IMG/VR virus record: IMGVR_UViG_3300009597_000018
Location: 1 to 50,161 of that record
Strand: one strand, 5' to 3'
DNA length: 50,161 bases
Source: a virus
The position numbers and the translations under genes were made by a program. This document shows positions 5,561-35,452 of the stretch, piece by piece; position 1 is the stretch's first letter; the number at the start of each line of letters is the position of its first letter. The notes under the pieces were generated by a model. The model was not told the origin of the DNA, did not search any database, and saw nothing but the letters and a program-made list of their open reading frames with translations.

Positions 5561-5808
5561 CGACGGGCTACCGTGCCGCGAACTTCGAGGCGCTGCTCAA
5601 CGGGCCGCCGGGAGGGTACACGCCTGGTGTCAGCGAGCGCGAAGCAGGATGGTGGTGGATCAAGGACCCGACCGGATATGTCGGCAATCTGTCGCCCGAG
5701 CTACACACCGTCGTCGAGCACGAGGACGGGACGATCACCGTCTCCCCGTCGATTCTCGCGCCGCACTGGCACGGGTTCTTGGAGCACGGCGTCTGGCGGC
5801 AGGTGTGA
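5557..5808 (+). CDS. Small DUF6527-like protein (83 aa)
   Basis: GTG at 5557 overlaps the preceding TGA; a TTG at 5548 is an alternative start. The core runs GWWWIKDPTGYV and then ITVSPSILAPHWHGFLEHGV, matching the W...PSI...H-x-F pattern I associate with the small DUF6527 family found in phages. Function of that family is unknown. The gene is embedded between the glycosyltransferase-like and methyltransferase genes in one transcript. Confidence 0.65.
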   Translation: MTTGYRAANFEALLNGPPGGYTPGVSEREAGWWWIKDPTGYVGNLSPELHTVVEHEDGTITVSPSILAPHWHGFLEHGVWRQV

Positions 5809-5815
5809 GGGGACG

Positions 5816-6313
5816 ATGCACCGGTCGGTGATGACGTTCGTGGAGGCCGCCGCCGCCCGTTACGGGCTGAACCATCCTGGGCTGCACGTCCTTGAGGTTG
5901 GGGCGCTCGACGTGAACGGGAGCGTCCGTTCTCTGTTCGGAAAGGTCGAGCGGTACGTCGGGATCGACCAGCTCGCCGGGAAGGGCGTCGATCATGTAGC
6001 GAACGCGCACGCGATCCCGTTCGAGCACGACGTGTTCGACGTGGTCGTGTCAACCGAGATGCTTGAGCACGACCCGGAGCCGTGGCTGTCCGTGTCCGAG
6101 ATGGGCCGCGTGCTCAAGATCGACGGGATTCTTGTCGTGACGGCGCGCGGGATCGGGTTCCCGCACCACAGTTATCCAGACGACTTCTATCGGTATACGC
6201 CAGAGGCGATCCGGCATCTGGTCGAGGAGTACGCGGGGCTTTCGGTGCTTGAGATCCGCGACGACCCTGAAGCATCGGGCGTGTTTGCCGTCGCGCAGAA
6301 GCTACCCTTGTGA
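5816..6313 (+). CDS. Class I SAM-dependent methyltransferase (165 aa)
   Basis: ATG at 5816 follows GAGGGGAC. Motif I is LHVLEVGALDVNG (residues ~23-35), the acidic residue of motif II lies in VERYVGID (D51), and VFDVVVSTEMLEHDPEPW resembles Methyltransf_11 motif IV. The protein is short, without a substrate-recognition domain, so the target cannot be read; with the neighbouring glycosyltransferase-like gene, sugar or protein modification is likelier than DNA. It is the last gene before the control region of the capsid gene. Confidence 0.8.
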   Translation: MHRSVMTFVEAAAARYGLNHPGLHVLEVGALDVNGSVRSLFGKVERYVGIDQLAGKGVDHVANAHAIPFEHDVFDVVVSTEMLEHDPEPWLSVSEMGRVLKIDGILVVTARGIGFPHHSYPDDFYRYTPEAIRHLVEEYAGLSVLEIRDDPEASGVFAVAQKLPL

Positions 6314-6317
6314 TCTA

Positions 6318-6374
6318 GGCAAGGCTCGGCCCGGTGGGGCAAGGTTCGGTTTGGTTGGGCGGGGCTAGGCGTGG
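6318..6374 (+). repeat. GGNNN pentamer array (12 units)
   Basis: GG doublets occur at 6318, 6323, 6328, 6333, 6338, 6343, 6348, 6353, 6358, 6363, 6368 and 6373, twelve in exact 5-nt register, beginning five bases after the methyltransferase stop. The last doublet overlaps the base of the following terminator hairpin. GG with 3-nt loops could form two-tetrad quadruplexes, or be read by a ring-shaped RNA-binding protein. A related array lies at 42576-43060. Confidence 0.85.
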
Positions 6375-6403
6375 GGGAAGGGGGGCTTCGGCTCCCCTTC
6401 CCC
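6374..6403 (+). terminator. Strong hairpin terminator before capsid gene
   Basis: GGGGAAGGGG (6374-6383), G, GC pairs with GC, T, CCCCTTCCCC (6391-6403) around a TTCG tetraloop, giving 13 bp including one G-T wobble. Downstream sequence GTTCGTT is only weakly T-rich. It separates the modification genes from the capsid promoter. Confidence 0.75.
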
Positions 6404-6435: not shown

Positions 6436-6464
6436 TTGACGCTGTGACTTTCGCAGCGTATGGT
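6436..6464 (+). promoter_or_regulatory. Consensus sigma70-type promoter for major capsid gene
   Basis: TTGACG (6436-6441), 17-bp spacer, TATGGT (6459-6464). This is the best classical promoter in the window. The sequence CTACTTGACG around the -35 also occurs in the loop of the inverted-repeat element at 46163-46213. Confidence 0.75.
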
Positions 6465-6615: not shown

Positions 6616-8106
6616 ATGCGAGAGATCCCTGTTATCCGGGGAGGCGAGGACCTCGATGAGGTGCTCGACATCATCTCGGCCGATCTGAAGGCGTTGCTCG
6701 AAGCCGAGAGCAAGGGCGAGGACGTGGCCGACAAGAAGGCCGCGCTCGTCGAGGAACAGAAGCGCGTCGAGGCTCAGAAGGAGGCCGAGGAGAAGGCCGA
6801 GGCCGAGACGAAGGCAGCCGAGGCGAAGGCAGCCGAGGCGAAGGCGGCCGATGGCGACGCTGGCGACGAGAAGCTCGCGAAGATGATCGCGCTCGCCGTC
6901 AAGTCCGCCCTGTCGGAGCACGATGGCACGTCGCGCTACGTCGGCCCCGGCGCAGATCCCGAGGTCGTCAAGGACATCGCGGAAGGCAAGAGCTACCGGA
7001 TCGTCGAGCCGCGCGGCGGCGAGATCAAGGTCGGGGACAACCGGGCCGTCAAGGGCTTCATCGAGCGCAAGTCGTTCGCGGAGCTGATGCAGGCGATGGT
7101 GTCCACGAAGGAGGGGATGGGGACAGACGACCAGCGCGACTTCCTGCGCTACCTGTCCGCGAAGGCGCTCGCTGAGGGCACACCGTCCGCAGGAGGCGTC
7201 CTCGTTCCCGAGGAGTGGATGCCCGACCTGCTCACGCTGCTCCGCGCGAAGGCCGTCGTCCGACGGGCCGGACCGCGCTTCGTGCCCTTCAACAAGCAGA
7301 TGAACCAGACCTCGATGAGTTCTGGCGGGACGGCGTACTACTTCGCGGAGAACACGGAGATGACCACGTCGGAGCCGACGTTCGCGGAGGTCGCGATCCT
7401 GACTCCGAAGAACATGGGCGTCCTGGTCCCGGTCAGCAACTTCCTGCTCGCTGACGCGGCCCAGGCCGAGTCCATCGTCCGTGAGGACATGGCCGAGGTC
7501 ATGGCGCTCCGCGAGGACCTCGCGTTCCTGCGCGGCACCGGCACCTTGCAGCCGCTCGGGTTCCTGAACATGGTGAGCATCACCGAGGACCCGATCTACG
7601 ACTCGACGTCCGGGAACGGGATCGAGCCGACGCTGCCGGAGCTGCGCCGGATGAAGGCGGTGTTCCGGTCGCAGAACGCGGGCGCGATCCGGCCTGCGTG
7701 GTTCGCGCACCCGGACTTCCTGACCTACCTCGAAACGCTGACCGACGCGGACGGCAAGTTCCTCGCGGACAGCTCGCTCCTGAAGATCAACGACGACCAG
7801 ATCAGCGGCACCCTCGACGGTGTCCCGATCTACACGACCACGCAGAACCCGATGAACCTGACCATCGGCACATCGGCCGACTGCATGGACCTGTTCATCG
7901 TCAACATGGCCGAGGCCATCGTCGGGATCAACATGGAGCTTCAGCTCGACGTTTCGACGGAGGCGACCTACAACGTCGGCGGCACGTGGCACGGCGCGTT
8001 CCAGGACAACCAGACGTTGTTCCGGGCGATCATGCGCCACGATATCACCCACCGGCGGCCTGCACAAGTCGTGGTTCAGCACGGAGTTCGCCCGGCTGCC
8101 GTCTAG
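6616..8106 (+). CDS. Major capsid protein, HK97 fold, with N-terminal scaffold domain
   Basis: ATG at 6616 follows AGGAGGCGCACC. The first ~90 residues are a charged coiled coil rich in Ala, Glu and Lys (AETKAAEAKAAEAKAAD), the delta or scaffold domain that the prohead protease removes in HK97-type phages. The capsid fold follows: SAGGVLVPEEW (~residue 194), GTAYYFAENTEMTTSEPTFA (~238-257), VPVSNFLLADA, LRGTGTLQPLGFLN and WFAHPDFLTYLETL. Total length 496 is long for the family because of the scaffold part. It has its own promoter at 6436 and is followed by an HNH gene insertion before the connector genes. Confidence 0.95.
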   Translation: MREIPVIRGGEDLDEVLDIISADLKALLEAESKGEDVADKKAALVEEQKRVEAQKEAEEKAEAETKAAEAKAAEAKAADGDAGDEKLAKMIALAVKSALSEHDGTSRYVGPGADPEVVKDIAEGKSYRIVEPRGGEIKVGDNRAVKGFIERKSFAELMQAMVSTKEGMGTDDQRDFLRYLSAKALAEGTPSAGGVLVPEEWMPDLLTLLRAKAVVRRAGPRFVPFNKQMNQTSMSSGGTAYYFAENTEMTTSEPTFAEVAILTPKNMGVLVPVSNFLLADAAQAESIVREDMAEVMALREDLAFLRGTGTLQPLGFLNMVSITEDPIYDSTSGNGIEPTLPELRRMKAVFRSQNAGAIRPAWFAHPDFLTYLETLTDADGKFLADSSLLKINDDQISGTLDGVPIYTTTQNPMNLTIGTSADCMDLFIVNMAEAIVGINMELQLDVSTEATYNVGGTWHGAFQDNQTLFRAIMRHDITHRRPAQVVVQHGVRPAAV

Positions 8107-10555: not shown

Positions 10556-11007
10556 GCCAGTCCCCGATGCTGCCGGGAGTGCCGGGCAAGTTCCAGGCGT
10601 TCATGGACGCGCTCGTCACTCTTGAGAAGACGATCCATCCGGACCTGCCGGTCTACCGGTGGCAGCCGTACTCGTTCGAGCCTCCGGCCGTGTTCAACTG
10701 GCTCGGAGACTCCCCGTTCGAGATACGCGACCAGTCGCGGTGGCGGGACACGTTGCAGGTGCTCGTCAGGGTCGGCTGCCGGTACACGGAACAGAACGTC
10801 CTGATGGAGAAGGTCGAGGAGTTCACGGACGCGGCGCGGGAGACGCTCGACGCGGCGTTCGCGGCCGATCAGACGTTGGGTGGGACGGCCCGAGAGGTGC
10901 ATCGGACATTGATGCGGTTCTCGACGTTCCACGTCGGGGACATCGACGTGTTCGGGCCAGAGCTTGTGGTGTCGGCTCAGATCGACCGGCATCTCTCACC
11001 GAACTGA
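10552..11007 (+). CDS. Probable tail terminator/neck protein (151 aa)
   Basis: GTG at 10552 overlaps the previous TGA. The size, the position between gp10-like and tail tube genes, and a compact alpha/beta sequence (DTLQVLVRVGCRYTEQNVLM, then a helix EEFTDAARETLDAAF) fit tail-completion proteins that cap the tail tube. No catalytic motif or family signature can be named from sequence alone, so the role rests mostly on gene order. Confidence 0.6.
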   Translation: MSQSPMLPGVPGKFQAFMDALVTLEKTIHPDLPVYRWQPYSFEPPAVFNWLGDSPFEIRDQSRWRDTLQVLVRVGCRYTEQNVLMEKVEEFTDAARETLDAAFAADQTLGGTAREVHRTLMRFSTFHVGDIDVFGPELVVSAQIDRHLSPN

Positions 11008-33200: not shown

Positions 33201-33677
33201 GTGAGTGATCGCGTGCCGATCACAGCGAGAGATCCAGGGGAGCGATTCATCGAGAAGGTCGTTGTCGATGGCGTCGGGTGCTGGCAATGGACGGCGTGCT
33301 TGAACGAGAGCGGGTACGGACAGTTCAGGGTCGGGAGCAGTTCTGACGGGACAGCCGCGATGGTTCTCGCTCACCGTTGGGCGTACGAGCACTACGTTGG
33401 CCCGACGGATGAACCTCTTGACCATCTGTGTCGTGTCCGGTCATGTGTCAATCCGGCCCACCTAGAACCAGTCTCGTTGCGGGAGAACATTATGCGCGGG
33501 GACGGGCCAGCAGCTCGAAACGCGGCCAAGATTGCGTGTATTCACGGCCACCCGCTCTCGGGTGGAAATCTGAGGGTCTACGTCGAGGCGACGGGGGCGA
33601 GAAGGCGGTGCGTGGCATGTCAGCGTGAAACCCAACGAAGATACCGGGCTGCGAGGCGGCGGACGTGTACGGGCTAG
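33201..33677 (+). CDS. HNH homing endonuclease-like protein 2 (158 aa)
   Basis: GTG at 33201 follows GGGGGG; GTG at 33213 is an alternative. The N-terminus has GCWQWTACLNESGYGQF, as in many HNH_3 proteins, then AHRWAYEHYVGPTDEPLDHL, CRVRSCVNPAHLEPVSLREN (catalytic His and N-P-A-H). The C-terminal part carries C-x-H-G-H-P and CVACQRETQRRYRA, a likely zinc site. It overlaps the start of the intein-bearing peptidase gene by 13 bases. It differs enough from the HNH at 8160 to be an independent arrival. Confidence 0.85.
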   Translation: MSDRVPITARDPGERFIEKVVVDGVGCWQWTACLNESGYGQFRVGSSSDGTAAMVLAHRWAYEHYVGPTDEPLDHLCRVRSCVNPAHLEPVSLRENIMRGDGPAARNAAKIACIHGHPLSGGNLRVYVEATGARRRCVACQRETQRRYRAARRRTCTG

Positions 33678-35452
33678 GGTGGGCACCCGACCCGGAGGAC
33701 GACCGTGACGTGAAGTGGCGGTCAGTCGTTCGGGCCGCCCTGCCGCTCCCGGCCCGTTTCATCTTGAAAGGCCGAGGGCCGGTGCTAAACCAGGGCACCA
33801 CCCCGATGTGCTTCCCGGCCGGAACGCTCATCCGGCTTGCTGACGGGACACATCGCGCCATCGACGAGCTTCGCCCGCTTGACCGTGTGATGACGGCTGA
33901 GGGAATGAGCGGCCTCGTCGTGAAGGTTGGAGTGCGATTCCACGACGAGGGGCTTGTGCGGATTCGTCTACGAGGACGGAGCGACGGACTGCGCTGCACC
34001 GCCGAGCACCCGATCCTGACGCATCGAGGGTACGTTCCGGCGGGAGAGCTGAGGCTTCGCGACGAGGTGGCGCTTCCTCGACGGACGTGGCATGAACGTG
34101 ATGACCTGTTCCTTCCCGGCGTCATCGCGACATGGCCGAAGGAGAGTCGGCGCGTCCACCATGCAGGGGGCGTCGCGACGGTTGTGAGCGCACCGCCAAC
34201 GACAGTCAAGCTCGACTTTCGTTTCGGTCGTCTGCTCGGTCTCTATGCGGCAGAGGGGTACGCTCGGAAGACACGCAGTCAGGTGAGTTTCTCGTTCGGC
34301 AAGCACGAGGCAGAGACGCTTGTTCCCGAAACCGTCGAGCTTCTTCGTGACCTGCTTGGAATCGAGGCTCGCGTTCAGCATCGAGCGCACAACGTCGTCA
34401 TCGTGAACGTAGGCGGGAAGCACTGGTGCGAGATGTTCACGGCACTGTGCGGACAGGGTGCGAAGGGGAAGCGCCTCGCGATAGACGGGCCGCCAGAGTT
34501 CAAGCGAGGGTTCTTCTCGGGGTGGATGGACGGGGACGGCTGGAAGCCGTCCAAGAAACCCGACCGGGCACTTCGCCATATCGGGGTGACGATCTCTCAT
34601 TGTCTCGCGCTCGATGCGTGGGCGATCGGGAACGATCTCGGGATCGCGCCGACGCTCGCGTACAGCGACCCGAAGTTGTCCGGGAGCGTCAGGCAGCGTC
34701 GCTACGACCTTACGTTCGCGCCCGAGGCGAAGAACCCCCACAGCCGCCTTACGGATGAAGCTTGCTGGCGGCGAGTCACGGCACTGGAGCACGAGGATTT
34801 CGCCGGATACGTCTACAACCTCGAAGTCGAAGGCGACCACTCCTACGTCGCCGAAGGATTCGGTGTCCACAACTGCGTTGCGTACACGTCCGCGTCGATC
34901 CACCAGCACATGCAGTGGGCCGACCACGGCAAGTTCCTGACGTTCGACCCGGCCGAGCTTTACACGCGGTGCAAGGAACGTGACGGGTTCGCGGGCGAGG
35001 GGACGTTCATCCGGATCGCGATGGCGGTGATGCGCGAGCGCGGCATGTGGGCGCGGAAGTCACGGTATCTGGCCGCCGACGCGGTGTTCCCGATCCAGTC
35101 GTACGTGCGGCTGAGAGCGGCGCAGGAGATCAAGGAGGCGCTCTACACGGTCGGCCCGGTCGCGTTCGGGACGATGGTGGACGAGGGGATCTACAAGCCG
35201 GTGCCGCGTACGGGCAAGGTCGCGGTGTTGCCGCCCCCGGCCCCGTCGAAGAAGATCGGCGGCCACGCGATGTGCGTTGTCGGGTACGACGCAACGGACG
35301 GGCTGCTCCTCAAAAACAGTTGGAATACCTCTTGGGGGACGGGCGGGTACGCGTGGATGGGGTGGGGCTACCTGACGACGTACCCGGCATGGGACGCGTG
35401 GAGAAGCATGGACCTCCCCGACGACGTGCTCGCGGAGATCCTCGGAGGATGA
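33665..35452 (+). CDS. Papain-like (C1A) cysteine peptidase precursor containing an intein
   Basis: The 595-residue precursor encodes a 240-residue peptidase split by a 355-residue intein. Exteins: LGWAPDPEDDRDVKW (typical C1A start), VLNQGTTPM with oxyanion Gln43, then after splicing the nucleophile Cys in CVAYTSASIHQ; catalytic His534 in GGHAMCVVGYD and Asn551 in LLKNSWNTSWGTGGYAW (precursor numbering; 179 and 196 after splicing). No signal peptide is seen. Start GTG 33665 overlaps the HNH gene. Among the lysis genes it could cleave host or wall-linked proteins; substrate unknown. Activity requires intein removal because the nucleophile is the +1 residue. Confidence 0.9.
   Translation: MYGLGWAPDPEDDRDVKWRSVVRAALPLPARFILKGRGPVLNQGTTPMCFPAGTLIRLADGTHRAIDELRPLDRVMTAEGMSGLVVKVGVRFHDEGLVRIRLRGRSDGLRCTAEHPILTHRGYVPAGELRLRDEVALPRRTWHERDDLFLPGVIATWPKESRRVHHAGGVATVVSAPPTTVKLDFRFGRLLGLYAAEGYARKTRSQVSFSFGKHEAETLVPETVELLRDLLGIEARVQHRAHNVVIVNVGGKHWCEMFTALCGQGAKGKRLAIDGPPEFKRGFFSGWMDGDGWKPSKKPDRALRHIGVTISHCLALDAWAIGNDLGIAPTLAYSDPKLSGSVRQRRYDLTFAPEAKNPHSRLTDEACWRRVTALEHEDFAGYVYNLEVEGDHSYVAEGFGVHNCVAYTSASIHQHMQWADHGKFLTFDPAELYTRCKERDGFAGEGTFIRIAMAVMRERGMWARKSRYLAADAVFPIQSYVRLRAAQEIKEALYTVGPVAFGTMVDEGIYKPVPRTGKVAVLPPPAPSKKIGGHAMCVVGYDATDGLLLKNSWNTSWGTGGYAWMGWGYLTTYPAWDAWRSMDLPDDVLAEILGG
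33809..34873 (+). mobile_element. Intein with LAGLIDADG homing endonuclease domain (355 aa)
   Basis: The intein starts at Cys49 (CFPAGTLIRLADG, block A), has TAEHPILTHRGYV (block B, T-x-x-H), two dodecapeptide motifs RLLGLYAAEGY and GFFSGWMDGDG (endonuclease), and ends with YVYNLEVEGDHSYVAEGF (block F) and VHN before a +1 Cys (block G). All splicing residues (Cys1, His, penultimate His, terminal Asn, Cys+1) are present, so it looks class 1 and splicing-competent; both endonuclease acidic residues are kept. Its codon use is a little less GC-rich than the exteins. Confidence 0.93.

Follow-up and report, generated by a model that had tools for sequence, protein, structure and literature searches.

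The stretch at 6315-6403 of the window, i.e. the complete 50,161 nucleotides of the virus record IMGVR_UViG_3300009597_000018 analyzed here, can with good confidence be assigned to a guide RNA of the VIPR type (vrRNA) and not to a switch of the neighbouring capsid gene. VIPR systems were described in a 2026 preprint (PMC13142463). According to this work, Vipr is a phage-encoded Cas7-like RAMP protein that binds vrRNAs, guide RNAs of about 100 nt in which 9-16 YNNGG repeats with hypervariable NN precede a structured 3' tail; double-stranded DNA is read through the NN pairs, with a skip of one base, and the VIPR complex represses genes of competing phages (PMC13142463). The 6315 array is very probably a further member of this very recently described guide class. 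The features discussed below are collected in Table 1.

Table 1. Features of the window around the 6315 array and around the RAMP gene
Feature	Position	Strand	Evidence or remark
Methyltransferase gene (Methyltransf_11), stop codon abuts the array	5573..6313	+	Pfam
Putative guide tract, 12 YNNGG (= GGY/NN) units	6315..6374	+	pattern count, shuffles; vrRNA definition of PMC13142463
Putative 3' tail: 13-bp hairpin (TTCG loop), without a gap after the last unit	6374..6403	+	folding, z = -3.8
Promoter-like site TTGACG-17-TATGGT, sigma-70-like	6436..6464	+	scan: 1 found, 0.1 expected
HK97-type major capsid protein gene	6616..8106	+	ATG at 6616
Divergent Vipr-like RAMP (P0003), candidate partner protein	41853..42575	+	profiles, predicted structure
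Putative second guide array, next to the RAMP gene	42576..43066	-	GG lag-5 z = 7.6; 11 GTCGC separators at intervals of mostly 8+5n nt
Small HicB/ribbon-helix-helix-like protein, encoded just past the RAMP-side array	43115..43318	+	domain search

The first-pass annotation had described GG at twelve consecutive 5-nt steps in this region. This is borne out (6318-6374) and can be sharpened, as the array reads from 6315 onwards as twelve perfect YNNGG units (Y = C/T), in the order CTAGG CAAGG CTCGG CCCGG TGGGG CAAGG TTCGG TTTGG TTGGG CGGGG CTAGG CGTGG. All twelve units start with a pyrimidine (P = 0.0024 in a within-unit permutation); the conserved triplet is GGY. The dinucleotides between Y and GG are TA AA TC CC GG AA TC TT TG GG TA GT, with 8 different ones among the 12 units, i.e. 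the array has the number of tandem repeats as well as the hypervariable NN of a vrRNA. When the local 65 bases were shuffled (100,000 times by mononucleotides, 50,000 times by dinucleotides), the longest in-register GG run was 9, so that none of the 150,000 reached the observed 12, and in 100 Markov sequences of the whole window the maximum was 7. The second-longest YNNGG run in the window, on either strand, has 3 units. A comparison of the array with Rfam matched no family.

The array is located in the 3' UTR of the methyltransferase gene. As in vrRNAs, a structured tail follows directly after the repeats, here the hairpin at 6374-6403, whose stem starts inside the last GG of the array. The hairpin had previously been taken for a terminator. 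Its 13-bp stem indeed overlaps the last unit, but it has no T-run (GTTCGTTCCC comes next) and was not called by the terminator scan; it may best be regarded as intrinsic-terminator-like, without a U-tract. The promoter-like site sits between the hairpin and the capsid gene, which is probably a downstream neighbour and not part of the element. When DNA relatives of the window were searched for, the left half gave no megablast match and the distant mode returned only capsid-gene stretches of about 100 bp.

Furthermore, a viral collection was scanned for the bare pattern GG(N3GG)x11 without any gene criterion. At least 120 stretches were obtained, and 90 of the 120 listed contain non-tandem arrays. 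Over the arrays of the 120 loci listed, the unit consensus is GG followed by C (69%) or T (18%) and two nearly random positions, and the number of units ranges from 12 to 50. In Escherichia phage SUSP1 (KT454805) the Vipr gene was located, with a 12-unit array beside it, and linkage was tested on the pattern-fetched loci by an iterated profile with the SUSP1 Vipr as the single seed. A homologue is encoded in 81 of the 120 loci listed, SUSP1 itself being in the same set. Among the matches listed, it lies at most 1.1 kb from the array in 69 of the 90 non-tandem loci, and 111 of 114 linked arrays of non-tandem loci are on the Vipr strand. With a period-7 control pattern 116 loci were found, 6 of them non-tandem and none with a Vipr. 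Since 69 of the 90 listed non-tandem loci are linked as compared to none in the period-7 control, strict non-tandem arrays of GGYNN units specifically mark VIPR, and a plain period-5 GG scan recovers VIPR loci at high specificity. The arrays of these relatives adjoin RAMP genes, or lie near RecT-like, tail-fibre and helicase genes, and not specifically capsid genes. The notion that such arrays are markers of capsid genes was dropped after other solitary arrays had been inspected.

A candidate partner protein, P0003, is encoded in the window itself. This protein of 240 amino acids was first spotted by its C-terminal motif in the tblastn output obtained with SUSP1 Vipr and then analyzed by profiles and structure prediction. 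SUSP1 Vipr directly compared with the window by tblastn gave no match, and neither did P0003 with Pfam. P0003 carries the C-terminal G-loop GFLGLGADRSQGEGTF, and its AlphaFold model (mean pLDDT 75) has a Csm3/Cas7 fold (Foldseek E 4.7e-8, VIA Z 12.9), in agreement with the description of Vipr as a single-domain protein of about 20 kDa with an RRM-type RAMP fold and G-loop (P0003: GLGADRSQGEGTF). In a search with a profile of array-linked Viprs only, P0003 was the top match below the inclusion threshold. Its relatives L131 and L132 match the SUSP1-type profile at 2.7e-8 and 2.5e-6, respectively, a reverse profile search from the P0003 subfamily matches array-linked Viprs (L050, 3.2e-7), and with a profile of 27 Viprs, 3 of them from the P0003 subfamily, P0003 is the sole match in the record (E 5.8e-12). 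At the level of sequence profiles, the homology of P0003 to SUSP1-type Viprs is weak alone (E = 0.0024) and firm through the relatives.

P0003 is also flanked by an array in 5-nt register, as expected for a Vipr (z 7.6; p 1.6e-5). Directly downstream of the gene and on the opposite strand, a non-coding stretch of 490 bases (42576-43066) contains short NNNGG runs divided by GTCGC-type separators. GTCGC occurs 11 times in this stretch as compared to a shuffle mean of 1.0 and a maximum of 6, and the separator spacings equal 3 modulo 5 in 10 of 13 cases, from which the p value above is derived. In L285, whose RAMP is the closest relative at 54% identity, the region has the same layout, with a GG lag-5 z of 5.6 (10664-11000). 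A weaker form of the separator layout is seen in Mae-JY09 (L130) and L286. Other RAMPs of the P0003 subfamily come with 5-nt-register arrays whose consensus is RGCNN-like and not GGY (L138 520-840, L141 10235-10714 and L135 2400-2790). Taken together, 41853-43066 has the appearance of a VIPR locus whose subtype uses looser units, and the RAMP-side array that of a VIPR format in which short guides are numerous. Immediately upstream of the RAMP gene, a 453-aa gene (40370-41731) strongly matches PHROG 2319 (function not annotated; E 2.5e-74) and is a possible operon partner. The HicB/ribbon-helix-helix-like protein behind the array is a possible DNA-binding accessory protein. Further upstream in the window, at 33665-35452, a papain-family cysteine protease gene is split by an intein with splicing/Hint domains and a LAGLIDADG endonuclease, as assigned by Pfam.

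The 6315 array and the RAMP gene are 35 kb apart in the same record, and the RAMP gene adjoins the other array. As compared to the latter, the 6315 array has a stricter consensus (Y in 12/12 units versus a pyrimidine after GG in 20/36), its tail is a plain hairpin, and it lacks GTCGC separators. L285 has the RAMP-side array, but its 51-kb record contains no solitary strict one. Arrays detached from a vipr gene occur elsewhere. One array of G008 lies 17.7 kb from vipr, and one array of G012 lies 2 kb from vipr on the opposite strand and ends in a terminator-like hairpin. G002, the 56-kb record of L024, has strict GGY arrays at 7260, 40924, 41052 and 51017, three of the four with terminator-like hairpins, and no Vipr recognizable in the record by two profiles; it either encodes a very divergent Vipr or uses its guides in trans. 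The layout with a hairpin after the array is also found in L005, L014, L024, L072, L116 and three arrays of G002. Upstream of some solitary arrays a small Vipr seemed to be present; these ORFs match neither of the two Vipr profiles and were rejected.

The first-pass annotation had compared the array to TRAP attenuation, where a ring protein on the repeats would decide if transcription stops at the hairpin or continues into the capsid gene. One part of the analogy holds, as 5-nt units each read by a subunit of an oligomer come close to the VIPR model (PMC13142463); the mechanism does not. The 5-nt spacing, the about 11-12 units and the overlap of the last unit with the hairpin speak for TRAP-like attenuation, but the record's own genes include no TrpBP homologue (PF02081, E up to 10), (G/U)AG occurs only twice in 68 bases with GGY as the triplet instead, and the number of units in relatives is not fixed at 11. 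The missing U-tract, the negative terminator scan, the promoter-like site downstream of the hairpin and the linkage of relatives to RAMP genes instead of capsid genes further argue against it. We thus consider TRAP-like attenuation very improbable and abandon the idea of gated read-through into the capsid gene. A G-quadruplex switch of RNA or DNA with two tetrads and 3-nt loops, which had been named as the other option, is hardly more attractive. Any GGN3 array fits a two-tetrad motif, but the pyrimidine at the third position of all units and the free NN would be left unexplained, as would the linkage and co-orientation with RAMP genes and the absence of an equivalent period-7 class; neither the conserved Y nor the linked Cas7-like gene would be needed. 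Chance, or low-complexity G-rich sequence in front of a hairpin, could be invoked for a region with 51% G, but in view of the shuffling results, the short next-best YNNGG run and the near absence of non-tandem runs in the period-7 control (6/116) its probability is practically negligible.

A more serious alternative, which we rate somewhat below an even chance, concerns the use of the guide and not its nature. The 6315 vrRNA could be a relic, or could act in trans with a Vipr that comes from the host, a prophage or a missing part of the phage genome, whereas the RAMP of the window would serve only the array at 42.6-43.1 kb. The two arrays of the window are unlike in consensus and tail, several phages have strict arrays with terminator-like tails and no recognizable Vipr in the record (e.g. 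G002), and the linear record may lack part of the genome. On the other hand, the register and all twelve pyrimidines of the 6315 array are intact, and the array is therefore not decayed. In addition, a RAMP is encoded in the same record, and vipr-distal arrays exist in G008 and G012. Because detached arrays are known in G008, G012 and G002, the 6315 array would most likely be a working guide derived from the methyltransferase 3' UTR. Whether the window's own RAMP is the partner of this guide we regard as evenly balanced.

For the putative vrRNA at 6315-6403 the following mode of action can be proposed. A short non-coding guide comprising the twelve GGY/NN units and the 3' hairpin would arise from the 3' UTR of the methyltransferase mRNA, and the hairpin may end or protect it. 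In analogy to VIPR, Cas7-like RAMP subunits would assemble along the guide, each GGY being held, so that the twelve NN dinucleotides could be offered to double-stranded DNA. The complex would recognize a gapped target, predicted as TANAANTCNCCNGGNAANTCNTTNTGNGGNTANGT, and the target, likely to be a gene in a rival phage or satellite, would be silenced. From the analogy we infer that the 6315 RNA is transcribed, is bound by protein, reads DNA with a skip of one base and silences a rival. The exact 11-unit pattern of the predicted target is absent from viral and genome contigs, and its first nine units gave no match in the collections searched. The last eight units occur in 13 stretches, and eight or nine units in 4 stretches in genomes, none of which extends beyond chance. 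The best partial target in the viral and genome collections agrees in 10 of 12 units and 21 of 24 positions, which is chance level, and no self-target with up to 3 mismatches is present in the window.

VIPR has been proposed as the ancestor of CRISPR effectors. With the window, the VIPR systems gain a high-GC phage that has a divergent Cas7-like protein, an array format of its own in which separators set the spacing, and a strict guide detached from the RAMP gene. The 6315 case offers a way to test whether guides work in trans and can be shared between elements. Tentatively, solitary terminator-tailed vrRNAs might represent free-standing guide cassettes in phage 3' UTRs, far from vipr, which would work in trans, either with a Vipr from the same phage that belongs to another subtype or with one from another element, and one phage would then run two guide-array formats; we think this plausible, with the balance tilting slightly against it.

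When compared to known systems, TRAP (MtrB) attenuation of trp operons shares with the 6315 array the 5-nt spaced repeats for an oligomer near a hairpin and differs in the triplet, whereas the window has no TRAP gene, no U-tract terminator and a variable number of units in relatives. The Csm3/Cas7 RAMP backbone proteins of type III and VII CRISPR have the fold and the C-terminal G-loop in common with P0003; unlike them, P0003 has no Pfam match and adjoins a 5-nt-register array instead of a CRISPR array. The terminator-tailed GGY arrays (L005, L014, L024/G002, L072 and L116/G012) resemble the 6315 array in that they comprise 12-15 or more units with the last GG flush with a stem-loop. Among them a Vipr is adjacent in L005, 2 kb off in G012 and not recognizable in G002, L014 and L072. 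Like the 6315 array, the SUSP1 vrRNA is phage-borne and non-coding, with a structured 3' tail behind about 12 GGY/NN units. The SUSP1 vrRNAs, however, flank vipr and share a pseudoknotted tail, whereas the 6315 array is a single solitary unit with a simple GC hairpin and a RAMP gene at a distance.
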